Virus record (IMG/VR): IMGVR_UViG_3300002180_000040
Coordinates: 1-32,592 of that record
Origin: a virus
Strand: one strand, 5' to 3'
Length of the DNA: 32,592 nucleotides
Shown here one piece after another: positions 2,814 to 17,392 of the stretch. A program made the translations under genes and the position numbers. Below the pieces are notes generated by a model. The model did not search any database. It saw nothing but the letters and a program-made list of their open reading frames with translations, and had not been told where the DNA came from. Positions within the stretch are counted from its first letter, which is position 1. Every line of letters starts with the position of its first letter.

Positions 2814-3288
2814 AGCCCCAGTAATAAATTAAACCTCCGTAGGCTGAGTCCCTCCATATTTGGGAGACGTCCGTAGCCCTCTCTCTAGTAGCTTGTACTG
2901 ATAGTTTTAAATGATTGGTTATTTTGTATGTAACCTCAAAATTAAACGAATAGGATAAAGCAGATACAGCGTATTTTACTGATTTAGGTCTATAGATATG
3001 AGAAAACGAGACTCCCGGTAAAATATCTAAGTTATCTGTTATAGGTATCTCCTGATCTATTTTACAAAAAACCCATTTTGTATATTTAATCTCCGGGAAA
3101 CGCTCGACCTCGATACCTAGTCTAGTATATGTCCCGTTATAGTAGTCTGAGAAACTAATTTTATAATTTAAAGCCGGCTCATTTACAGGGGAGCCGTAAA
3201 TTAAATTACTAAAATCGATACGTAACCCTACGTCCTGAGAAAATACGGACGTAGAGATTAATAGTAATATAAATATTATTTTTTTCAT
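2803..3288 (-). CDS. Secreted outer-membrane beta-barrel-like protein
   Basis: The 161-residue protein begins with a classic signal peptide (MKKIIFILLLISTSVFSQ, cleavage expected after the Q). The rest is made of alternating polar/hydrophobic strands rich in Tyr, Ser and Asn, such as YAVSALSYSFNFEVTYKI, ending in an aromatic strand GLIYYWGYDN. That pattern is typical of small outer-membrane beta-barrels or porin-like proteins of Bacteroidota. It lies 11 bp after the RecF-like ATPase gene in the early operon, an odd companion for DNA-replication genes. A role at the host surface, for example blocking receptor use by other phages, is an inference. It could also be a periplasmic beta-sandwich protein. 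Confidence 0.55.
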   Translation of the reverse strand: MKKIIFILLLISTSVFSQDVGLRIDFSNLIYGSPVNEPALNYKISFSDYYNGTYTRLGIEVERFPEIKYTKWVFCKIDQEIPITDNLDILPGVSFSHIYRPKSVKYAVSALSYSFNFEVTYKITNHLKLSVQATRERATDVSQIWRDSAYGGLIYYWGYDN

Positions 3289-4933: not shown

Positions 4934-5584
4934 TTAAAAAGGTAGTCCCTTTTTTTCGATACCGTCTCCGGCTGCATTTAATTTGTAGCCCTCAGGTATT
5001 GCGTCTCCTGTAGCCCAATTCTCAGGAGTTACTACCTTTTTTTGCTCAGGTGCCGGAGCTGTAGACTCAGTCGAACCGCCCGGAGATAGGAAAGGATTAC
5101 CGTTTTCTACTAACAACTGGCTTAAATCTATAGGAGTAGCTATAAAAGCGTCTACTATCTCCTGAGTAGGCTCTTTTTTAGGTTTAGCTATAAAACTATA
5201 CTCCGTATCCATACCGGAACCTTTTTTACTAATTACTATATCATAGTATTTAGGATGTCCCCAGTCAGCGTCTGCGGCGTGTTTATGTAATGCCGCTATA
5301 ATTGTCTGTTTGTCTAACTCTAAAACCTCTATAGACTCAGTCTCGTAATTCCATACGATTAAAGCCCATGCGTGTTTTACAGAGTCTTTTTGTCCGGCTC
5401 CTTTTGCCGGTTTATTGTCGCGGTCGAATTTAACTCTTTTAGGTTTTCCGTCCGCCCAAATTAGCCAAACCATTAAAGGAGAGGATAGGATACGGAAACG
5501 GTTATCTCCCGTCTCTAACTTTGTAAAACCTCCTCCGCTAGTAGGTACCTCGTACCCGTCAGGTAAAAAACTTTCTTTACTCAT
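4934..5584 (-). CDS. Probable phage single-stranded DNA-binding protein
   Basis: The 216-residue protein has the pattern of phage ssDNA-binding proteins of the gp32-like/replication group. An N-terminal GDNRFRILSSPLMVWLIWADGKPKR leads into a beta-rich core with HAWALIVWNYETESIEVLEL and YDIVISKKGSGMDTEYSFIAKPKK. A flexible Pro/Ala/Glu-rich linker near 165-190 follows, and the extreme C-terminus is KKGLPF. The LPF tip resembles the bacterial SSB tail that recruits partner proteins, although the usual acidic run before it is missing. It is the second gene after the leftward early promoter, suiting an abundant early protein that coats replication intermediates. The exact family cannot be fixed without a profile search. 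Confidence 0.6.
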   Translation of the reverse strand: MSKESFLPDGYEVPTSGGGFTKLETGDNRFRILSSPLMVWLIWADGKPKRVKFDRDNKPAKGAGQKDSVKHAWALIVWNYETESIEVLELDKQTIIAALHKHAADADWGHPKYYDIVISKKGSGMDTEYSFIAKPKKEPTQEIVDAFIATPIDLSQLLVENGNPFLSPGGSTESTAPAPEQKKVVTPENWATGDAIPEGYKLNAAGDGIEKKGLPF

Positions 5585-5602
5585 AATTAAAAAATTTAAT
5601 AT

Positions 5603-5824
5603 TTATTTATTGATTAATAATAAAACTAGATCCTCTAGTTTTTTCGTTATATTCTCGTCTGTAGTCCTAGTCTGTAGGACGTTGTTTAGCTTGGATCTAT
5701 TTTTAGCCGTCTCCGGAAAATCCGCTTTAAAGTAATGAAAAAATAAAGAAGTAATACCGCTTTTAGGTAAATCTTTTTTAGCTTTCAAAACTCGTATTTT
5801 TAAATCCTCGGTCGTAGTATTCAT
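5603..5824 (-). CDS. Small early protein, unknown function (73 aa)
   Basis: This is the first gene of the leftward operon, directly behind the strong promoter at 5851-5881. The protein contains LKIRVLKAKKDLPKSGITSLFFHYF and ends TTDENITKKLEDLVLLLINK. It appears to be helical and soluble, with no membrane segment. Similar short proteins with a 'RxTDExITKKLE' ending occur, as I recall, in flavobacterial phages and prophages, but I know no function for them. Its first position suggests an immediate-early regulator or anti-host factor; that is inference. Confidence 0.55.
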   Translation of the reverse strand: MNTTTEDLKIRVLKAKKDLPKSGITSLFFHYFKADFPETAKNRSKLNNVLQTRTTDENITKKLEDLVLLLINK

Positions 5825-5850
5825 TTTCGTAATAGTTTTTAAATCTGAGA

Positions 5851-5881
5851 CAAATATATAAATTAAATTTTAATGTACAAA
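5851..5881 (-). promoter_or_regulatory. Leftward early promoter (flavobacterial consensus)
   Basis: On the minus strand, TTTGTAC (5881-5875) is followed, 19 nt after its TTG, by TATATTTG (5858-5851). This fits the Bacteroidota sigma-A pattern TTG-N17-23-TANNTTTG. The spacer and boxes are nearly identical to the rightward promoter at 7543-7574, including a TTAAAATNTAATTTATATATTTG core, which suggests duplicated promoters. It would drive the operon 5824 to 2673. Confidence 0.75.
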
Positions 5882-5905
5882 TTTTTTTTACAAAAATATT
5901 TTACA

Positions 5906-5940
5906 TACATTTACAGAATATTTATAACCAATAAATTTTA
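5906..5940 (+). promoter_or_regulatory. Candidate rightward early promoter -7 box and leader element
   Basis: TACATTTA at 5906-5913 is one base off the TANNTTTG box. It is followed after 11 nt by TAACCAATAAATTTTA (5925-5940), a leader element repeated before other phage genes. No good TTG box stands 17-23 nt upstream, so the promoter is weaker than the leftward one or needs an activator. The same TANNTTTA-plus-leader arrangement recurs at 12336-12374. Confidence 0.4.
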
Positions 5941-5944
5941 TATT

Positions 5945-6049
5945 ATGTTTGAATTATTTTATTTTGCCTATTTATTTTTGATTGCTTTATTTTTAATTTC
6001 TGCCGGTACTTTAGTATATGTATTAGTAAAGGAGCACTTAAAAAAATGA
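5945..6049 (+). CDS. Tiny membrane protein (34 aa)
   Basis: The frame encodes a 34-residue peptide with one hydrophobic helix over residues 2-27 (FELFYFAYLFLIALFLISAG and onward) and a basic end VKEHLKK. Its TGA overlaps the helicase ATG as ATGA. It begins 5 nt after the conserved AACCAATAAATTTTA leader, the position of a true start codon elsewhere in this genome. Both points support it as a real gene. It may act on the host membrane or mainly serve as a translated leader coupling ribosomes to the helicase gene; neither is shown. Confidence 0.55.
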   Translation: MFELFYFAYLFLIALFLISAGTLVYVLVKEHLKK

Positions 6050-7536
6050 GTATATTTAAACTTAGACCGTATCAGGAGGAACTAAAAACTGATATTCGTA
6101 ACCTATTTTCTAACGGTAAAAAGCGCGCTATTTTATGCAGCCCTACAGGGTCAGGAAAAACGGTTACTTTTGCAGACATAGCCCGAGAGAGTGTAAAAAA
6201 TGGATTTAAAGTCCTTATTATAGTAGACCGTAAAGAGCTGTTAAATCAAGCTCGGGAAAAACTAATATCTTACGGACTTAATCCGTCAATCATTACCGCC
6301 GGGAGGACTGGGAGATTAAATAACGACTCCTATATAGCAACCGTACAGACTTTAGTAAGGAGGCAATTTCCGCCGGTAGACCTTATTATAGTAGACGAGG
6401 CTCATAAGCAAATATTTGATAAAGTTTTAATACGTGAGGAGTATAAAGACGCTTTTGTAATTGGAGCTACAGCTACTCCGTACCGTACCGGTCGTATGAC
6501 TCAATTAAGTAGTATTTATAGTAATATTGTAGAAACTGTAAATATAGACGACCTGATAAAATCAGGATTTTTAGTCCCGGCTATTACATACGGAGCTAAG
6601 GTAGATACCTCAAAAATAAAGATTAAAAGAGGAGATTTCGATAATCAGGAACTATACAAAGCTTTCGATAAACAGACGCTTTACGCCGGAGTAGTAGAAA
6701 AATATAAAAAATTCGCTAACGGTACAAAAGCTATCTGTTTTAATATTAATGTAGAGCACTCCAAAAAAGTAACAGCCGCCTTTAACGCTGCCGGTATTTC
6801 TGCTATCCATTTAGACGGAAAAACTCCAAAAAAGGAGAGAGAGCGTATATTAGATAGTTTTTCTAAAGGTTATTTTAAAATACTTTGTAACGTAGACGTT
6901 TTAACCGCCGGCTTTGACGAGTGGACTATAGAGACTATAATCGTAAATTTAGCTACAAAATCTTTAACCAAATGGCTACAGATGAACGGTAGAGGCTCTC
7001 GTATTACTCCTTTCGAGTTTAAAGGTAAACCCGGATTTTTACAAAAAGAGCATTTTAATATTATAGATATGGGAGGGAACGTTTTTACGCTCGGATTTTG
7101 GGAGGCTGAGAGAGAGTATAGTTTAACTCATAGAGTAAAATCTACTATAGATCCGGCTCCTGTAAAAATTTGTCCGGAGGATAAAGTAGACGTTAATATA
7201 AATAGAGGTTGCGGAGCTATCGTACATTTATCCGCTCCCCGGTGCAAAATCTGCGGCTTTGTTTTTCCTAAAGAAATTAAAAAAGAGGTAGAGTCTGAGT
7301 TTATCCAGTTAGAAAATCAGCAATATTTACCGCCTGAGCTAATCGGTAAAAGTTGGGGTAGTATGACCGTACAGGAGTTAGAGTCTGTTAGAGTTATTAA
7401 AGGATATAAACAGGGTTGGATCGTTAGGCAAATATTACTTAATAAAGATTTACAGCTCATAGATTACGCTCGATTTAAACAATACAAAAACGCCGCTCTT
7501 TGGGTCGGGCGTATGGAGGATATGTATATAAAGTAA
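6046..7536 (+). CDS. SF2 DEAH-box helicase with C-terminal zinc ribbon
   Basis: The 496-residue protein has the full helicase set: LRPYQEEL near the start, Walker A PTGSGKT at 33-39, DEAH at 117-120, motif III-like ATATPYRTGR at 141-150, and motif VI QMNGRGSRI near 305-313. It matches the ResIII/UvsW-type group of phage SF2 helicases. About residues 372-405 hold four cysteines (CPEDK, GCGA, CKICG) that probably bind zinc. The length is normal for phage members of this group. It most likely remodels branched DNA or unwinds duplexes during replication and recombination. It is the first large gene of the rightward early region and is translationally coupled to the tiny membrane gene before it. 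Confidence 0.88.
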   Translation: MSIFKLRPYQEELKTDIRNLFSNGKKRAILCSPTGSGKTVTFADIARESVKNGFKVLIIVDRKELLNQAREKLISYGLNPSIITAGRTGRLNNDSYIATVQTLVRRQFPPVDLIIVDEAHKQIFDKVLIREEYKDAFVIGATATPYRTGRMTQLSSIYSNIVETVNIDDLIKSGFLVPAITYGAKVDTSKIKIKRGDFDNQELYKAFDKQTLYAGVVEKYKKFANGTKAICFNINVEHSKKVTAAFNAAGISAIHLDGKTPKKERERILDSFSKGYFKILCNVDVLTAGFDEWTIETIIVNLATKSLTKWLQMNGRGSRITPFEFKGKPGFLQKEHFNIIDMGGNVFTLGFWEAEREYSLTHRVKSTIDPAPVKICPEDKVDVNINRGCGAIVHLSAPRCKICGFVFPKEIKKEVESEFIQLENQQYLPPELIGKSWGSMTVQELESVRVIKGYKQGWIVRQILLNKDLQLIDYARFKQYKNAALWVGRMEDMYIK

Positions 7537-7607: not shown

Positions 7608-8630
7608 ATGAATGTATTATCACTTTTCGACGGTATGAGCTGCGGACAAATAGCGTTAAATAGAATAGGTATAACTCCCGATAATTATTTCGCTAGTGAA
7701 ATAGATAAACACGCTATAGAGGTAACTCAAAAAAATTACCCCAGTACTATACAAGTAGGAGACGTACAATTTTTAACAAAAGAAACTTTTTTAAATCATA
7801 AAATAGATTTAATAATAGGAGGTAGTCCTTGTCAAGGCTTTAGCTTTGCCGGAAAACAATTAAATTTTGACGACTCTAGGAGTAAGTTATTTTTTGATTT
7901 TGTTAGATTGTATAAAGATTTAAAAGAGGTAAATCCTGATATTAAATTTTTACTAGAAAATGTAAAAATGAAAAAAGATTATCAGGATATAATATCTAAG
8001 TATTTAGAGGTAAAGCCTATAGAGATTAATTCTAGCTTACTCTCAGCTCAGAATAGAAAACGTTTATACTGGACGAATATACAGGGAGTATCTCAGCCCG
8101 AGGATAAAGGTATTTTTCTTAAAGATATATTACAGCCGTTTGTTAGTGATAGTTTTTTAATGAGTGAAAAGTGGGGCGTATGGTGGGACAAAAATTTAGA
8201 GTTTCAATTAAAAAAGAAATATTCAGCCGTTAACCCTGATAAAGCTATTACTATGACGGCTAGACAATACGCCAACTGGAACGGTAATTTTGTTTTTGTA
8301 GGAAATAGCGCGCTAGTTAGGGAGGCTACTAAAAAAGGGTATACAGAGATTAAAGATAAAGACTGTGTAGATTTAACTTTTATAGGTAGTAAAACTCGTA
8401 GAGGTCGAAATATGAAAGAAAAATCTAACTGTTTGACTGCAAATAATTTTAATTTTTTTCAGTTTAAAAATGGAACCTTTAGAAAACTAACCCCTGTAGA
8501 ATGTGAAAGACTACAGACAGTACCCGACAATTACTCGGATATAGCTAGTAACTCTCAGCGTTATAAAATGCTCGGTAACGGTTGGACTGTAGACGTTATA
8601 GCTCATATATTTAAAAATCTTAAATTATAA
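7608..8630 (+). CDS. DNA (cytosine-5) methyltransferase
   Basis: The 340-residue protein carries the ordered C5-methyltransferase motifs. Motif I is LSLFDGMSCGQIAL (5-18) and motif IV is GGSPCQGFSFAG with catalytic C75. Motif VI is LLENV (E117), motif VIII is QNRKRLYW (148-155), and the C-terminus has LTPVECERLQTVPDNY and MLGNGWTV for motifs IX and X. The region between about 160 and 270 is the target-recognition part. It is of the orphan phage type, as no restriction endonuclease is next to it. The likely job is to modify phage DNA against host restriction. The target sequence cannot be read from the protein. It has its own promoter and is followed 4 bp later by the exonuclease gene. Confidence 0.92.
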   Translation: MNVLSLFDGMSCGQIALNRIGITPDNYFASEIDKHAIEVTQKNYPSTIQVGDVQFLTKETFLNHKIDLIIGGSPCQGFSFAGKQLNFDDSRSKLFFDFVRLYKDLKEVNPDIKFLLENVKMKKDYQDIISKYLEVKPIEINSSLLSAQNRKRLYWTNIQGVSQPEDKGIFLKDILQPFVSDSFLMSEKWGVWWDKNLEFQLKKKYSAVNPDKAITMTARQYANWNGNFVFVGNSALVREATKKGYTEIKDKDCVDLTFIGSKTRRGRNMKEKSNCLTANNFNFFQFKNGTFRKLTPVECERLQTVPDNYSDIASNSQRYKMLGNGWTVDVIAHIFKNLKL

Positions 8631-9439: not shown

Positions 9440-9703
9440 ATGAAAAACAAAAGCCCCATTTTCTACGTAACTCTAACGGGACATATCACTACAGGAAAAT
9501 CTAAAAAAGTAGTGGTAGTAGTTGTAAAAGAGCTCGTAGTAAAAGGAACCGACGAACAAATAAAAAACAGCGAAAGGGTAAAACGCAATTTTTTAAAGAA
9601 ACATTTTAAAAGCTCTAAAAAAGCTTTTGATTTCGATTTAAGTAGATTAAAAATAGTAAGTATTAAAGTTTTAGAGAGCTTAGGATATGGAACTCCCGTT
9701 TAA
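9440..9703 (+). CDS. Small basic protein, unknown function (87 aa)
   Basis: The protein has a beta-strand run of valines (KKVVVVVVKELVVKG, about 23-37) and then a lysine-rich helical part (SERVKRNFLKKHFKSSKKAF). It has no cysteines, signal peptide or membrane segment. It starts 1 bp after the exonuclease stop and overlaps the HNH-like gene by 17 bp, so it is part of the replication operon. The strongly basic character would suit nucleic-acid binding. No family is recognised. Confidence 0.55.
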   Translation: MKNKSPIFYVTLTGHITTGKSKKVVVVVVKELVVKGTDEQIKNSERVKRNFLKKHFKSSKKAFDFDLSRLKIVSIKVLESLGYGTPV

Positions 9704-10106
9704 TATTAGCGAGTCTAAAAAAGCTAAAGGTTTGAAATGCTGCGCGTATGCTTGTAATAATAAACCTTTAGCTAAACTCGGCGGACTTTGTCCTAAACAT
9801 TACAGGAGAAAACGCCGAGTCCTGGATCCTGTTTATTGTAGGTATAATGGTTTTAAAGGTAACGCTAAAAAGCGAGGTAAAGATTTCGGTATTACGCTAA
9901 CAGAGTTTAGAGCTTTCTGTAAAAAAACCGGATACCTCAGCAAAGGGCAGCGAGGACAAAACGCTACAATAGACCGCCGCTGTAATATCCATGGTTATTT
10001 TATATGGAATATTCAACTTTTAACAAACAGACAAAACGCTAGTAAAGGCTCCGGATTTTCCGGAGATAATTTCGAGAGGTGCGACCCGGAGGACTTACCG
10101 TTTTAA
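9687..10106 (+). CDS. HNH-like zinc-finger nuclease with SSB-like C-terminal tip
   Basis: The 139-residue protein begins with a cysteine/histidine cluster (CCAYACNN, GLCPKHYRRKRR) that probably binds zinc. It continues with an HNH-like core: FKGNAKKRGKDFGITLTEF, then ATIDRRCNIHGYFIWNIQLLTNRQNASK. The 'IDR...GY...NIQLLT...N' part is typical of HNH proteins of phages. The classical first histidine is not clear, so activity is uncertain. The last residues, DPEDLPF, look like the acidic tip of bacterial SSB. It could be a homing-type or packaging/recombination nuclease, or a DNA-structure binder. It ends just before the promoter region of the second methyltransferase gene. Confidence 0.6.
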   Translation: MELPFNISESKKAKGLKCCAYACNNKPLAKLGGLCPKHYRRKRRVLDPVYCRYNGFKGNAKKRGKDFGITLTEFRAFCKKTGYLSKGQRGQNATIDRRCNIHGYFIWNIQLLTNRQNASKGSGFSGDNFERCDPEDLPF

Positions 10107-10143
10107 TTAATATAAATTATTAAATAAAATAATGTAAATTATT

Positions 10144-10208
10144 TTTGTACAAAAGTTTTGTATATCGAAATAAATACTTTACATTTGAATATTATTAACC
10201 GATAAATT
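10144..10208 (+). promoter_or_regulatory. Promoter and conserved leader before the second methyltransferase
   Basis: A TTG at 10158-10160 stands 19 nt before TACATTTG (10180-10187), matching the flavobacterial promoter. A second upstream TTTG belongs to the palindrome TTGTACAA at 10145-10152, also present at the 7608 gene. The leader AACCGATAAATT (10197-10208) follows the expected start site and lies 6 nt before the ATG at 10215. Together they suggest two methyltransferase genes under the same type of control. Confidence 0.7.
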
Positions 10209-10214
10209 AATAAA

Positions 10215-11036
10215 ATGAATAATACTGTAATTTTAGGATATAGTGAAAAGGAACTAAAAAAGATTAAATCTAATAGTATAGATTTAATAATAACATCTCC
10301 TCCCTACGCAGATAGGAGAAAAAAAACTTACGGGGGTATAGCTGTAGTTAATTATATAGAATGGTTTAAACCTATAGCTATCGAAATTAAAAGGATATTA
10401 AAACCTACCGGTAGCTTTTTTTTAAATATAAAACCTCATACAACTAAAGGAGAGAGAGAATTATATGTTTTTGAGTTGGTTCTATTCTTAAAAAAAGAAT
10501 TAGGATTTATGTTTATAGAGGAGTATTGTTGGACTAAAAACGGTTTTCCGGGAAAATTAAACGGTCGGTTTAAAAATGCCTTTGAGCCCGTTTATCACTT
10601 TACAAAATCGAGCCCTAGCTTAATAAAGTTTAATCCGTTAGCTTGCGGACATCCTGTAAAAAAAGAGAGTCTAGCTAGAGCTAATAGAAAAAGGAGCTCC
10701 GCTCCGGCTAACGGATCCGGAATGACTGCTTTTAATACTGATAATCATAAAAAATTAAAAATAGCCAGACCCTCTAATGTTATAAATGTGAATAACGTTA
10801 GTAATCAATTTACTCTAAAAAGTAAACACTCCGCTACGTTTCCTGTAGGATTGGTAGACTTTTTTATAAAAAGTTTTTCAGATCCTGGAGACTTAATTTT
10901 AGATCCATTTGCAGGGAGTGGTACTGTAGGTTTATCTTGTATTGATAGCGGAAGGAAATATATACTTATAGACAAAGTTTCTGAAAATGTAGATTTAATT
11001 AACACAAGGATAAATAGACTTATTGAAAAATTATGA
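10215..11036 (+). CDS. SPPY-type DNA methyltransferase (probably N4-cytosine, or N6-adenine)
   Basis: The 273-residue protein has motif IV TSPPY at 27-31 near the N-terminus. The AdoMet-binding motif I, DPFAGSGTVGLSCIDSGRKYILIDK, lies near residues 229-254. This order marks the beta class of amino-methyltransferases. SPPY is more common in N4-cytosine enzymes, while DPPY is typical of N6-adenine ones, so m4C is preferred but not certain. The central region (about 110-200) should hold the target-recognition part. No restriction enzyme is adjacent, so it is likely an orphan protective or regulatory enzyme. It has its own promoter, and its stop overlaps the next small gene as ATGA. Confidence 0.87.
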   Translation: MNNTVILGYSEKELKKIKSNSIDLIITSPPYADRRKKTYGGIAVVNYIEWFKPIAIEIKRILKPTGSFFLNIKPHTTKGERELYVFELVLFLKKELGFMFIEEYCWTKNGFPGKLNGRFKNAFEPVYHFTKSSPSLIKFNPLACGHPVKKESLARANRKRSSAPANGSGMTAFNTDNHKKLKIARPSNVINVNNVSNQFTLKSKHSATFPVGLVDFFIKSFSDPGDLILDPFAGSGTVGLSCIDSGRKYILIDKVSENVDLINTRINRLIEKL

Positions 11037-12379: not shown

Positions 12380-13282
12380 ATGAATAATATAACCTTTCAG
12401 TACTACCCGGCTAAAGTAGATACTACTAAGCCTCTAGGCTTTGTTACGCTAGCCGAGTTTATAACCGCTATTAAAAATCCGTCCGACAATATTAAAGAGA
12501 TTTTTAAGCAAATAGCAGCCGCAGAAAAAGCCGGAGATATGAAAACTAAGGCAGCTCTAAAGCAAAATAATCTATTTTATTTTACTCCCTGTATACACTC
12601 GAACGGAAAAACGAGAGGGTATAAAGATATAGAAAAGTTTACCGGACTGGCTGTTTTAGATTTTGACCATATCGACCACGCGGACGAGTTTAAAGAGTAT
12701 ATTTTTAATACTTATAAATTTGTATCCGTCTGCTTTTTGTCAGCATCAAAACGCGGAATAAAAGTTTTAATTAAAATCCCAGTAGTAAAATCTGTAGTAG
12801 AGTTTAAGGAATTTTTTTACGGACTAGGCGTTATTTTTGAAAGGTATAAAGGTTTCGACGGGACTACTCAAAACTGCGTACTCCCTCTTTTTTTAAGTTA
12901 TGACGCTGAGTTATTGCACCGGGAGAAACCTACGACTTTTAAAGGTAGAGGTATAAAGCTCGACGCGTTTAAAGAAAATACGACGGTAGATATTAAGAAT
13001 ATCGTTATAGACTCAGAGGACAGTAAACGAGTCTACGCCAATATAGAAAAATCATTTAATAATATCGTTAGCGACGGTCATCCTCAGGTAATTAGCGCGT
13101 GCGTTTCTCTCGGGGGCTATGTTGCCTCCGGCTATGTCTCCGAGGCGGAGGCTCAGACTTGGGTTAGTAATTTTATCAGGAGTAACGGTTATCTTAAAAA
13201 AGGTATCTCCGGATATATTAAAACCTCAGTAACAGCAATTAAAACCGGTATGGGCTCTCCGTTAATTCTTACTAAATCTTAA
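12380..13282 (+). CDS. BT4734/VirE-N-like primase-type replication protein
   Basis: The 300-residue protein matches the BT4734-like/VirE N-terminal domain that Bacteroidota mobile elements carry next to VapE helicases. It contains LFYFTPCIHSNGKTRGYKDIEKFTG, then LAVLDFDHID with D94 and D96, and SASKRGIKVLIKIP near 121-134. These are the positions of the acidic and nucleotide-binding motifs in primase-polymerase folds. Residues 200-300 form a separate helical domain (SDGHPQVISACVSLGGYVASGYVSE). It lies 6 bp before the helicase gene, so the two probably form a primase-helicase pair that opens and primes the nearby repeat cluster. Priming activity is inferred from the family. Confidence 0.72.
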   Translation: MNNITFQYYPAKVDTTKPLGFVTLAEFITAIKNPSDNIKEIFKQIAAAEKAGDMKTKAALKQNNLFYFTPCIHSNGKTRGYKDIEKFTGLAVLDFDHIDHADEFKEYIFNTYKFVSVCFLSASKRGIKVLIKIPVVKSVVEFKEFFYGLGVIFERYKGFDGTTQNCVLPLFLSYDAELLHREKPTTFKGRGIKLDAFKENTTVDIKNIVIDSEDSKRVYANIEKSFNNIVSDGHPQVISACVSLGGYVASGYVSEAEAQTWVSNFIRSNGYLKKGISGYIKTSVTAIKTGMGSPLILTKS

Positions 13283-13288
13283 ATACTT

Positions 13289-14746
13289 ATGATTGATAAT
13301 AGCAAATTTTTAAAAGAGGATTTTTTTATAGGAAAGTATTTAGATATTGACGCTAAAGAGGAGGTAAAAAAGGAGGCTAAAGCCGAGGTAGTCTCAGAAA
13401 ATAAAAAATCTTGGAAAGATATTTACGGGTTTATACATCAAGTAAACCGCTCTGGTAGACCTTGGACGAGTGCCGACGTAATTAATATGTGTGAAATACA
13501 TTTAGTATCTGAGAAAAAAGTAAAGGCAGCTTTCGAGAAAATATTTAAAGAGAATAAGGACGAGTACGGTATTGTAGATAAACCCGAAATTTATAAGGTC
13601 GAGGTATGGCTTAAAAAAAACTGGGACTTTGCAGAGAATGAAATAACTCAGGTTACTGAAATTAAAGAGAAAAAAGATAAAATTTTCGAGCCTCTTAATG
13701 TAGACTCAATCTATAGAAAATTACAGCACGTTAATTTTAAATTTCCTTTCGATAAATTAAAGAGTCTTTTTAAATCCGATTTCGTAGAAAAATATAATCC
13801 TTTTATAGATTATTTTGAGAGCCTGGATCCTTGGGACGGTAAAACCGATTACATAACAGAGCTAGCTAATTACGCTCAGGTAGAGGATCAGGATTTTTAT
13901 GTAACTCAATTTAAAAAAGCTCTCGTACGTTGTATAGGTTGCGGTCTATATAATAAAGAAAATCGTATTGTTTTCGTTTTTGTAGGAGAAAAGCAGAGCA
14001 CCGGTAAAAGTACTTTTATACGTTTCCTTAATCCTTTCGGAGCTAAATATTATACAGAGGCTCCGCTCCATAATAATAAAGACTCTAGTTTTTCTCTAGC
14101 TGAAAATTTCATATACAATTTAGAGGAGCTCGCTAGTCTCTCAAATATCGACGTTAATAGATTAAAAAGTATTATATCTATGGCAAGTATTAAGGAGAGA
14201 AAAGCCTACGCTCGGGACGTAGTAGAACAGCCCCGGAGGGTTAATTTTTTCGCGTCTACTAATAAGAACGAATTTTTAACAGATACCGAGAATACGCGTT
14301 GGCTTTGTTTTAACTTGGAGTCTATGGACTGGGGCTACTCCAAAAAAGTAGATATAAATAAAGTTTGGGCTCAGGCTTTTGCACTTTATAAAGATCCAAA
14401 ATTTAGCGACCAATTAACAAAAGAGGAGGCAGAGTTTCGAGATAAAAAGAATAAAGGTTATGAGATTAACGATTACGAAAAGGAGCTAATAAAGCGATAT
14501 TTTCAAGTCTGCGAACCGTCAGAGGGAGCGTTTTTTTCTAACGCGGATATACTCGAAATTCTACAGGCTGACGGTACAAAAAATTTAAACTCTAGATTTA
14601 TAGGTAAAAACATGGTACAGCTCGGTTTTGAGCGCGGATTACGTAAAATAAATAATCATCCAGTACGCGGATATTTCGCAAAAAGAACGACCGAGGATTA
14701 TAAAACGGAGGAAATTAAAACTAAAAAAGGTAAAAAGCCATTTTAA
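13289..14746 (+). CDS. VapE-type SF3 replicative helicase
   Basis: The 485-residue protein belongs to the virulence-associated E family. Walker A is VFVGEKQSTGKSTF at 230-243, and a Walker B-like IYNLEEL lies at 275-281. The SF3-type sensor RVNFFASTN is at 317-325, followed by TENTRWLCFNLE with a likely arginine finger. The N-terminal 130 residues are a separate charged region. The last 90 residues (NADILEILQADG, FIGKNMVQLGFERGLRK, NHPVRGYFAKR) look like a winged-helix DNA-binding domain that could bind the repeats starting 4 bp after the stop. VapE proteins of satellites and phages act as replication initiators. The C-terminus KKGKKPF is basic. Confidence 0.82.
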   Translation: MIDNSKFLKEDFFIGKYLDIDAKEEVKKEAKAEVVSENKKSWKDIYGFIHQVNRSGRPWTSADVINMCEIHLVSEKKVKAAFEKIFKENKDEYGIVDKPEIYKVEVWLKKNWDFAENEITQVTEIKEKKDKIFEPLNVDSIYRKLQHVNFKFPFDKLKSLFKSDFVEKYNPFIDYFESLDPWDGKTDYITELANYAQVEDQDFYVTQFKKALVRCIGCGLYNKENRIVFVFVGEKQSTGKSTFIRFLNPFGAKYYTEAPLHNNKDSSFSLAENFIYNLEELASLSNIDVNRLKSIISMASIKERKAYARDVVEQPRRVNFFASTNKNEFLTDTENTRWLCFNLESMDWGYSKKVDINKVWAQAFALYKDPKFSDQLTKEEAEFRDKKNKGYEINDYEKELIKRYFQVCEPSEGAFFSNADILEILQADGTKNLNSRFIGKNMVQLGFERGLRKINNHPVRGYFAKRTTEDYKTEEIKTKKGKKPF

Positions 14747-14749
14747 AAA

Positions 14750-15054
14750 GTTACGTTAGAAAATGCTAATGTAACCAAATAACAGCCGGGTTACATTAAA
14801 AGTTACATTATAAGGATAGTTAATGTAACCTATAACTAACTAAAAACCAATATATTAAACTATGGTTACATCAGTTACATTAAAAATGACAAAACGGAAG
14901 GATTACAACGTACGCACTATATATACTACTATATATAATAATAATATTAAAGTTGCTATATTTAATGTAACTAATGTAACCGCCTTGTATCTTATTGTAA
15001 ATCAACTAATTACAGGTTACATCATTAATGTAACCTTAATGTAACTAATGTAAC
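14750..15054. repeat. Iteron-like cluster of 13 nine-base repeats around an AT-rich core; candidate replication origin
   Basis: The motif TAATGTAAC, or its complement GTTACATTA, occurs at 14767, 14790, 14802, 14821, 14874, 14963, 14972, 15026, 15037 and 15046. Variants are GTTACGTTA at 14750 and GTTACATCA at 14865 and 15016. Eight of the copies extend to ten bases (TAATGTAACC). Seven lie left and six right of an A/T-rich stretch (about 14918-14960) that includes 22 consecutive A/T bases at 14930-14951. Many copies are spaced 9-12 bp, about one helix turn. GGTTACAT and ATGTAACC form an inverted pair at 15015-15035. The cluster starts 4 bp after the VapE helicase gene. Iterons flanking an AT-rich core beside an SF3 helicase gene is the layout of satellite-phage origins. 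A regulator operator array is the main alternative. The stretch 14747-15077 holds no other convincing gene. Confidence 0.75.
14862..15044 (+). CDS. Doubtful 60-residue ORF inside the repeat cluster
   Basis: An open frame of 60 codons starts 6 nt after AACCAATATATT (14845-14856), a variant of the genome's leader element, which argues for translation. However, much of the product is simply the translation of the repeats (VTSVTL, NVTNVTA, INVTLM). The centre is the AT-rich core (IYTTIYNNNIKV). Most likely it is a by-product of the origin sequence, though a short translated leader through the origin is possible. Confidence 0.2.
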   Translation: MVTSVTLKMTKRKDYNVRTIYTTIYNNNIKVAIFNVTNVTALYLIVNQLITGYIINVTLM

Positions 15055-15077: not shown

Positions 15078-15734
15078 ATGTTTAAAAACAGCGAGTTAAC
15101 GGAGTCAGAGGCAAAAATTCAAGCGGATAGCTATACTTGGTTTCATAATACTTACCCTCATCTACGCGGATTACTTTACCACGTACCGAACGGGGAGAAA
15201 AGAGAGCCAATCGTAGCGAAAAAATTACAGGCTATGGGGGTAGTACCGGGAGTCCCGGATATGCCTTTTCACTATAGAGGTAAAACTCATTTTTTTGAGT
15301 TTAAAAAACCTAAAACAGGGAAAGCCTCAGACGCTCAGAAAAAAGTACATAAAGCTTTAGAGGATCAGGATTTTTTAATTTGGATGCCTGAGAGTGTAGA
15401 GGAGTTTCAAAAAGTAATTAAAAATATAATTGAAATTAAAAATCCGCTTTTTACAAATGGAGTTACAAAAGAGGATTATTATTATAGACATAAAATTTTT
15501 GATTATCTTTATAACCTCGGGGACGCCGAGCTAGTATTAATAAATGATATTTGCGAGGAGGATACCCAACAGAGATTTATAAATATAATTAGCGAGTTTA
15601 TGAATGAAAACTACGACTCTCTCTCTAAGTTTTCAATATTATTTACTCCTGATTTTAAAGCTTTCTATAAAAAATTAGACGGCTCAGACAGAGAGATAAT
15701 TTATAAAGGGAGTAGTATAGTACAGAATTACTAA
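15078..15734 (+). CDS. VRR-NUC domain nuclease with C-terminal extension
   Basis: The first 110 residues match the VRR-NUC fold of phage nucleases: ESEAKIQ near 10-16, LLYHVPNGEKR (32-42), GVPDM with D61, and FFEFKKPK with E74 and K76. DAQKK (Q87) and a closing WMPESVEEF follow. This is the PD-(D/E)xK active-site layout. Stand-alone VRR-NUC proteins of phages are often about 100-130 residues long; this one has a further 105-residue, acidic, helical part of unknown role. It may cut branched or nicked DNA at the end of replication or during packaging. It lies 24 bp after the last origin repeat and 21 bp before the terminase small subunit gene. Confidence 0.75.
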   Translation: MFKNSELTESEAKIQADSYTWFHNTYPHLRGLLYHVPNGEKREPIVAKKLQAMGVVPGVPDMPFHYRGKTHFFEFKKPKTGKASDAQKKVHKALEDQDFLIWMPESVEEFQKVIKNIIEIKNPLFTNGVTKEDYYYRHKIFDYLYNLGDAELVLINDICEEDTQQRFINIISEFMNENYDSLSKFSILFTPDFKAFYKKLDGSDREIIYKGSSIVQNY

Positions 15735-15755: not shown

Positions 15756-16100
15756 ATGCCAGTAGGAAAAAAATACGGAGGACGTCAAAAAGGAACCGAG
15801 AACAAAGTAACTAAAGATATTAGAGCTATGTTTAAATCTTTGGTAGAGAATAATTTAGAAGATTTACAGGACGACATAGATAAATTAAAAGGGACTGAGC
15901 GCGTAAAGTATACGCTCGAAATGGCTAAATTTTGTATACCTACTTTAAAATCTGTAGATTATAAAGGAGACGTAGAGGTAACGGCTAAACGTCGTATAAC
16001 TTTCGTCGATAAATCTAAAGCTCCTCAGGAGCCTATAGTAATTATTAAAGATAAACCGGAGGAGGATTTTATACCTCCCAGTAATGAGCCAATATTTTAA
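15756..16100 (+). CDS. Probable terminase small subunit
   Basis: The 114-residue protein starts with GGRQKGTENKVTKDIRAMFKSLVENNLEDLQDDIDKL and continues KGTERVKYTLEMAKFCIPTLKSVDY. This 'GRxKGTxNK...' opening with a helical middle is the form seen in small terminase subunits of Bacteroidota phages and prophages. The C-terminal part is extended, acidic and proline-rich. It would recognise phage DNA and hand it to the large subunit, whose gene begins 2 bp later. It opens the late region. No promoter with consensus boxes is visible just upstream, so late transcription may begin further back or use a phage-modified mechanism. Confidence 0.7.
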   Translation: MPVGKKYGGRQKGTENKVTKDIRAMFKSLVENNLEDLQDDIDKLKGTERVKYTLEMAKFCIPTLKSVDYKGDVEVTAKRRITFVDKSKAPQEPIVIIKDKPEEDFIPPSNEPIF

Positions 16101-16102
16101 GT

Positions 16103-17392
16103 ATGGAGGAGGAGGACGTAATATTTTCGGATAAATATTTACCGCTTTTCAATTTACTAGAGGAGGATAACCCGGCTTTAAAAGAAGTCGATACCGTTTT
16201 AATATCAGGAGGGAGAGACTCCGGTAAAACTTTCGGCTTAGGTTGTTTCGTTGGTACCGCTGCCTCAGATTTTAACCATAGGATTTTATATACTCGTCAG
16301 ACTATGGCTAGTACTTCTAACTCAATTACTAAAGCTTTAAAATTACGTCTCGAACTTCTAGGGCTCGATACCGATTTTGTTTTCGCTAATAACGAGTACA
16401 GCTCTAAAACGTGCGACGGTTGTATCTCGATTACCGGACAAAAGACGAGCACCGGGACAGATACCGCTAAACTAAAATCTATAGAGAATTACTCTATTTT
16501 TGTAACGGACGAGGGGGAGGAGCTCGTAAGCTTTGAGGACTGGAAAAAAATTAAAAGATCTATTAGAGCTCAGGACGTACAATGTCTTAGTATAATTTCG
16601 TTTAACCCTCCTAGTAAAAGTCATTGGTTATATAAAGAATACTATACAGATATACCGCCGGGGTTTAATGGAATTAAAGGAAACGTTTTATATATTCATA
16701 CTACATATTTAGACAATGGTAAAGAAAACATGGCTCTCCATAACTGGAACGAATACGAGGAGCTGCGGAAAGCGTACGAGTATTATTTAGCTACTCCTGA
16801 GACTGACCGAGATTTATTACCTAGGACAGTTAAAAAAATGTATGAGGAGTATAAAACTACTATTCTCGGAGGTTTCCGCAACGTAGCCGAGGGAGTAATT
16901 TTCGAGTACACTATCGGAGAGTATGTAGCTCCGGAGTATGGAGAGGTTATCGGAGCGGATCAGGGCTGGACACACCCTAGCGCATTTGTAAAAATGAATG
17001 TAGATAAAAAGCGTAAGCGAGTTTACGCTAAAGAAATATTTTATAAAACCAATTCGACGGAGGGAGATATTTATAATAGTATCGGAGCTGACGTCGGTAA
17101 TACTCGTATATGGTGCGACAATGCCGCCGCGCTATTCATTAGAAATTTAAAGAATAAAGGACTAAATATTAAGGGCTGCAAAAAACCTAAAATAAAAGAT
17201 AGTATTTTAGCTATGCTCGGTTACGAGTGGATTATAGATCCAGGATCTACAAATTTACAGACGGAGCTAGATAATTATCGTTGGGCTGACAAAAATAAAG
17301 AGGAGCCTATAGACGACTGGAACCACGCTATAGACGGAATGAGATACGGGTTTACTCATAAAATAAATGAGCGCGTACCTCAGCTATTATAA
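16103..17392 (+). CDS. terL: Terminase large subunit (PBSX/Terminase_3-like)
   Basis: The 429-residue protein has the packaging ATPase motifs. Walker A is SGGRDSGKTF at 35-44, and the Walker B SIFVTDEGEEL has D136 and E137. The motif LSIISFNPPSKSHW, near 170, is the coupling region. The C-terminal nuclease domain begins with GADQGWTHPSAFV near 275 and contains IWCDNAA and DDWNHAIDGMRYG, supplying the acidic metal-binding residues. The order and length fit the PBSX-type large terminase. It drives DNA into the prohead and cuts concatemers. It directly follows the small subunit and is followed by two tiny genes and the tail module rather than by the portal, which lies 11 kb downstream. Confidence 0.92.
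   Translation: MEEEDVIFSDKYLPLFNLLEEDNPALKEVDTVLISGGRDSGKTFGLGCFVGTAASDFNHRILYTRQTMASTSNSITKALKLRLELLGLDTDFVFANNEYSSKTCDGCISITGQKTSTGTDTAKLKSIENYSIFVTDEGEELVSFEDWKKIKRSIRAQDVQCLSIISFNPPSKSHWLYKEYYTDIPPGFNGIKGNVLYIHTTYLDNGKENMALHNWNEYEELRKAYEYYLATPETDRDLLPRTVKKMYEEYKTTILGGFRNVAEGVIFEYTIGEYVAPEYGEVIGADQGWTHPSAFVKMNVDKKRKRVYAKEIFYKTNSTEGDIYNSIGADVGNTRIWCDNAAALFIRNLKNKGLNIKGCKKPKIKDSILAMLGYEWIIDPGSTNLQTELDNYRWADKNKEEPIDDWNHAIDGMRYGFTHKINERVPQLL

Follow-up and report, generated by a model that had tools for sequence, protein, structure and literature searches.

Which function is carried by a gap densely filled with short repeats, lying between a helicase gene and a nuclease gene in a viral genome? 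The stretch of DNA considered here (hereafter the window) is a whole viral contig of 32,592 nucleotides, with an ORF open at each end, and the gap in question follows a gene of the vapE type. In our opinion, the region 14750-15054 represents with high probability a SaPI/Sfi21-type replication origin, i.e., one served by a self-loading SF3 helicase, to which VapE would bind through its C-terminal winged helix, with two hexamers facing each other. The copying of the phage DNA would thus very probably start at the array, and VapE is likely its self-loading initiator.

The repeat array and its mirror arrangement

The word TAATGTAAC (complement GTTACATTA, counted on either strand) is present between 14750 and 15054 in ten exact and three one-mismatch copies, divided 7 + 6 by an AT-rich core with 22 uninterrupted A/T bases; the first copy begins 4 bp after the vapE stop codon, and the array occupies the gap up to the next gene (Table 1). 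The number of copies and their division, the A/T run and the distance from the helicase gene had all been given by a previous sequence-only reading and were reproduced by our recount, the figures of that reading being correct wherever they can be checked. The concentration of the word in this single place was also confirmed: no exact TAATGTAAC or GTTACATTA was found outside 14767-15054 in the whole 32,592-base record, the top 9-mer outside the array reaches four copies per 305-bp window versus ten in the array, and no 9-mer exceeded four copies per 305 bp in 40 simulated first-order Markov genomes with the same dinucleotide make-up. A 60-aa ORF (14862-15044) embedded in the array is probably a chance occurrence and was disregarded.

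The sequence-only reading described two blocks of repeats; to this we add that the sites are arranged as an imperfect mirror about 14922.5, 10 of the 13 having an opposite-strand partner no more than 2 bp from the mirrored position (random placement expects 5.4) and with many adjacent iterons about one helical turn apart. The same layout is often shared by related phages: two inner sites on each side at 44-54 bp from the dyad, a flipped site at about 98 bp and outer sites at 108-130 bp. Moreover, the blocks that are invariant among the relatives using the same word are the iterons and the AT core.

Table 1. Predicted features in and around the array; offsets are from 14922.5, with the strand of GTTACATTA, and the strand column for iterons refers to TAATGTAAC.
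Feature	Position	Strand	Offset	Basis or remark
Primase-like partner gene, PrimPol-like	12380-13282	+		PF08800, BT4734-like N-terminal domain
vapE, SF3-type helicase, predicted self-loading initiator	13289-14746	+		PF05272, 1.1e-30; AF2 model vs 7pds
vapE codons 391-468, C-terminal winged helix, predicted iteron-binding domain	14459-14692	+		DUF3874-like; wing residue P453
Predicted replication origin	14750-15054			13 iteron-like sites, imperfect mirror
Iteron variant TAACGTAAC, leftmost	14750-14758	-	-168, +	one mismatch
Iteron TAATGTAAC	14767-14775	+	-152, -	exact
Iteron	14790-14798	-	-128, +	exact; mirrors 15046-15054, centre ±128
Iteron	14802-14810	-	-116, +	exact; mirrors 15037-15045, centre ±116/118
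Flipped iteron	14821-14829	+	-98, -	exact; mirrors 15016-15024, centre ±98
Inner-pair iteron variant TGATGTAAC	14865-14873	-	-54, +	one mismatch; mirrors 14972-14980, centre ±54
Inner-pair iteron	14874-14882	-	-44, +	exact; mirrors 14963-14971, centre ±44
A/T run of 22 bases, candidate unwinding element	14930-14951			TATAATAATAATATT common to related origins
Inner-pair iteron, right side	14963-14971	+	44, -	exact
Inner-pair iteron, right side	14972-14980	+	54, -	exact
Flipped iteron variant TGATGTAAC, right side	15016-15024	-	98, +	one mismatch
Outer iteron	15026-15034	+	108, -	exact; no mirror partner in this phage
Outer iteron	15037-15045	+	118, -	exact
Outer iteron	15046-15054	+	128, -	exact
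VRR-NUC-like nuclease gene	15078-15734	+
Predicted small terminase subunit	15756-16100	+		by position
Large terminase subunit	16103-17392	+

VapE and its primase-like partner

The assignments that the sequence-only reading had made for the genes upstream of the array, that is, an SF3 helicase with a winged-helix-like C-terminus adjoining a primase-like gene, agree with the domain searches (Table 1) and with the predicted structures. The AlphaFold2 model of VapE (pLDDT 82) has a SaPI Rep-like fold, its nearest solved structure being 7pds (PriRep1-dsDNA; Z 25.0, rmsd 4.3, 374 residues, spanning 88-478, with about 17% identity over the match), followed by the SaPI5 primase-helicase (Z 13.4); 7pds is also the top match in a sequence-profile search (E 2.4e-19). 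Residues 391-468 form a winged helix both in the whole model and in the domain modelled alone (pLDDT 72), whose nearest folds, among general winged helices, are RFX5 (Z 9.5, 77 residues, rmsd 2.2), Zur (7.8) and RFX1 (7.7). PriRep1 is absent from the fold matches listed for the isolated domain, which we did not count against the likeness. At the sequence level, no RFX match was found for the C-terminus; Pfam gives DUF3874, which matches 15 of the 25 members, several of them below the curated cut-off.

RFX1 reads DNA with its wing and not with its helix (PMC4333399). In the VapE alignment, the column best separating TT-AC words from the others is residue 453, located in the wing, which is T, P or N with TT words and K (as in the TGGAACA phages), Y, V or I otherwise; given the relatedness of the loci and the ranking of some 450 columns, this residue is only suggestive as a tracker of word class. 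A simple recognition-helix code (N/S/T residue after GK) was also considered and does not track word class in the alignment. Besides, the last residue of VapE is an invariant F in the 25 aligned sequences, and PF tips (GLPF, EDLPF, KKPF) end several early proteins (4934-5584, minus strand; 9687-10106 and 13289-14746, plus strand), recalling the C-termini of bacterial SSB proteins.

The partner gene product also gave a weak, sub-cutoff match to a CRISPR-associated PrimPol. In line with the sequence-only reading, no DNA polymerase was found among the 20 proteins scanned against Pfam, which yielded only a lone 3'-5' exonuclease domain, and no polymerase is listed for two complete relatives. The completeness of the phage given by that reading is less secure, an ORF being open at each end of the contig. 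The window also harbors two DNA methyltransferase genes, 7608-8630 and 10215-11036, of the C5-cytosine and N6/N4 type.

The idea that VapE is the iteron binder is well supported by linkage, by the structural match of the model to PriRep1-dsDNA and by the winged-helix C-terminus. We infer binding, melting, hexamer loading, bidirectional replication and the use of a host polymerase. In such a scheme, the C-terminal winged helix of VapE would bind the nine-base iterons; the near-mirror array would set two groups of VapE subunits face to face across a spacer of about 80 bp with the AT-rich stretch; each group would form a hexamer, and the two hexamers would melt the core and launch two opposed forks; the primase-like partner would prime, and the host polymerase would elongate. 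A GC-skew peak at the array, which the sequence-only reading had named as a sign to look for, was not found: there is no turn at 15 kb, and the skew follows the gene strand.

Arrays in related phages and alternative explanations

The analysis of relatives whose VapE is 41-78% identical revealed an array after vapE, often made of another word. In about 22 loci, an unsupervised scan of the whole locus, in which the position of vapE was not used, placed the top word cluster directly behind vapE or with at most a few small inserted genes in between; the words differed. GTTACATTA is the word in L001, L002, L003 and L020, GTTACATGA in L004, TGGAACAT in L006-L009, TGGAACAC in L010, GGTTACACT in L012, GTGACCAGT in phi18:1 and GTGAACG in L051 and L052; as the scan results were turned into word models by hand seeding, the exact site lists involve some analyst choice. 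The Winoviridae FPSV-S1 and lotta8-1 share the gene order of the window phage and have the array in the same vapE-downstream gap, which is not annotated as an origin; their words are GGTTACACA and TGGAACA, respectively, instead of GTTACATTA. Hamiltonella phage APSE-1 and Paenibacillus phage Rosalind likewise carry an array after vapE, whereas no array was detected 3' of vapE in L014, L015, L018, L019, L021, phi46:1 and BT23. A scan of a genome collection for further VapE relatives retrieved six distant matches, of which little use was made.

Some loci depart from this order. In phi12:1 (L034), a DNA methyltransferase gene and small ORFs (5424-6107) lie between vapE and the array and are absent in phi18:1 (L032), which suggests that the array stays together under gene insertion. 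L062 has 12 copies of ATTACAT at 2815-3092, upstream of a primase-VapE fusion gene, between this and a divergent terminase module; L016 has six copies of GTTACCA at 10207-10422, about 4 kb after vapE, where they closely precede the start of a minus-strand gene (9700-10137).

The geometry is partly conserved under changed words. When a template of 12 positions taken from the window array was compared with arrays built from other words, the fit reached the floor of the test (p 0.002) in L004, L006, L009, L012, L030 and L052, and p 0.007 in L007 and L017; the fits are weaker when the strands alone are shuffled. The fit is not significant in L008, L010, L011 and L051, and the template does not fit L005, L032, L034, L046, L053, L058, L063 and L033, several of which are more distant or use a GACC word. 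L008, L011 and L031, which make up the lotta group, have their AT box outside the inner pair. This box, TATAATAATAATATT (14934-14948 in the window), is common to the GTTACATTA group and to the TGGAACA lotta group, exactly or with one mismatch, despite their different iterons.

Which protein does the word follow? Across 23 loci, the word distance correlates with VapE distance at rho 0.47-0.50 for three of the four VapE parts (SF3 helicase core 0.49; N-terminus 0.26), at 0.35 with the VRR-NUC and at 0.29 with the small terminase (TerS). Given the SF3 core, the partial correlation is 0.18 (p 0.044) for the VapE C-terminus, similar to that of the middle part (residues 101-165; 0.15), and 0.21 (p 0.024) for the nuclease. 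The sequence-only reading had proposed a comparison of relatives for co-variation between word and VapE C-terminus: the word tracks VapE, but so weak an increment does not single out the binder domain; taken together, the statistics favor VapE as a whole over terminase or nuclease, only weakly.

This leaves room for an origin bound by something other than the VapE C-terminus, e.g., the primase-like partner, the N-terminal or middle part of VapE or a host protein. The similar correlations of several VapE parts are in line with this, and so is the fusion of primase and VapE in some relatives, which makes the primase inseparable from VapE by linkage; nevertheless, the modelled C-terminal winged helix, the wing residue that ranks first for word class and the C-terminal binding of both SaPI Rep and Cch2 (PMC7581432) render another binder unlikely. 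The strongest rival is a pac site, since most of these phages have terminase genes behind the array, and even in L062, where the array is upstream of vapE, it still lies between vapE and terS; the small terminase, encoded about 700 bp downstream, would bind the array, and packaging would begin there. Indeed, pac sites commonly contain repeats close to terS. However, the repeat word does not follow the small terminase: the TerS of the window phage, L001 and L002 has no blastp similarity to that of L003 and L020, yet all use GTTACATTA, while L046 has the TerS family of the window phage and a different word, and many words are found alongside a single TerS family. The pac explanation fails on this exchange of TerS under an unchanged word, together with the arrays after vapE in APSE-1 and Rosalind, near which there is no terminase gene; furthermore, the word distance follows TerS less than the helicase core, and dyad symmetry about an AT core is, to our knowledge, not an expected pac feature. 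We therefore consider a pac site improbable.

A cluster of operators, on which a repressor or activator would control the downstream nuclease and late genes, might be suggested by the nuclease, terminase and structural genes that lie downstream of the array; autoregulation is also frequent among iteron arrays. Against it, a promoter and terminator scan of the region gave promoter-like matches at chance level only, no conserved regulator gene was recognised beside the array, a mirrored span of about 300 bp about an AT core is unlike typical operators, and the array is kept with different downstream genes (the VRR-NUC gene, for instance, is not required, being absent beside the array in L017, L058 and APSE-1), so that we regard this explanation, too, as improbable. 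As for a chance or neutral expansion of functionless repeats, the region is indeed non-coding and AT-rich, but ten copies versus at most four in the simulated genomes, and a position and geometry kept under changed words, leave it a negligible probability, and the comparative data refute it.

The interpretation of the array as an origin, already advanced by the sequence-only reading, is supported by its position, layout, uniqueness in the record and persistence beside vapE under many words, as well as by an annotated origin likewise placed in phage Sfi21. Several features expected of this origin type are present: an SF3/VapE-type gene immediately upstream, multiple short iterons downstream of it (13 sites, above chance), an AT-rich segment between the iteron sets and, in the model, a SaPI Rep-like helicase fold with a C-terminal winged helix. 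A wider scenario can be put forward only tentatively, as a possibility that we would not yet call probable: flavobacterial and related phages might have in common one rigid mirror-symmetric pattern for two helicase hexamers, whose word, read by an RFX-like DUF3874 wing, switches between relatives, giving rise to mutually incompatible replicons.

Significance and comparison with known origins

If this interpretation is correct, the origins of many VapE phages could be read directly from sequence, DUF3874 could be assigned a likely role in origin recognition, and a concrete geometric model for two self-loading SF3 hexamers placed face to face would follow from the conserved spacings; the word swaps, in turn, represent a natural series for studying how initiator specificity changes. 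In a limited search of the open-access literature, covering VapE with iterons, PriRep1 and flavophage origins, we came across no account of a replication origin in these phages or of the FPSV-S1 and lotta8-1 arrays, and no earlier description of a conserved mirror geometry with a changing word or of a role for DUF3874.

The Streptococcus thermophilus phage Sfi21 record carries an annotated non-coding origin of 302 bp directly after the primase-helicase gene, with GTTAC-type inner sites flanking an AT core; a 1998 study is reportedly the source of this annotation. The Sfi21 origin thus shares with the window the position, nearly the same length and the inner sites about the AT core, whereas it has fewer sites, an unrelated host and a distant helicase; the fit of the 12-site template to it is not significant.

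In the SCCmec element, the helicase Cch2, also proposed to be self-loading, uses its C-terminal domain to bind repeats that closely follow its gene; this system differs in that only three iterons are reported (5-nt AAGTG), with no comparable long mirrored array (PMC7581432). SaPI Rep likewise recognises, through its C-terminal domain and apparently as two hexamers, iterons that come immediately after the gene encoding it (PMC7581432), in agreement with the SaPI-type layout that the sequence-only reading had invoked; in the window, the A/T run lies between the two iteron sets. SaPI origins (Rep/PriRep1) and the array share an SF3-type helicase with a C-terminal DNA-binding domain (predicted for VapE), iterons directly downstream and a partner primase; they differ in the element (a satellite versus a Bacteroidota phage), in the word and in the helicase, about 17% identical over the structural match. 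The kind of origin is already known from SaPI and Sfi21, and it is very probably present here in a flavobacterial phage.
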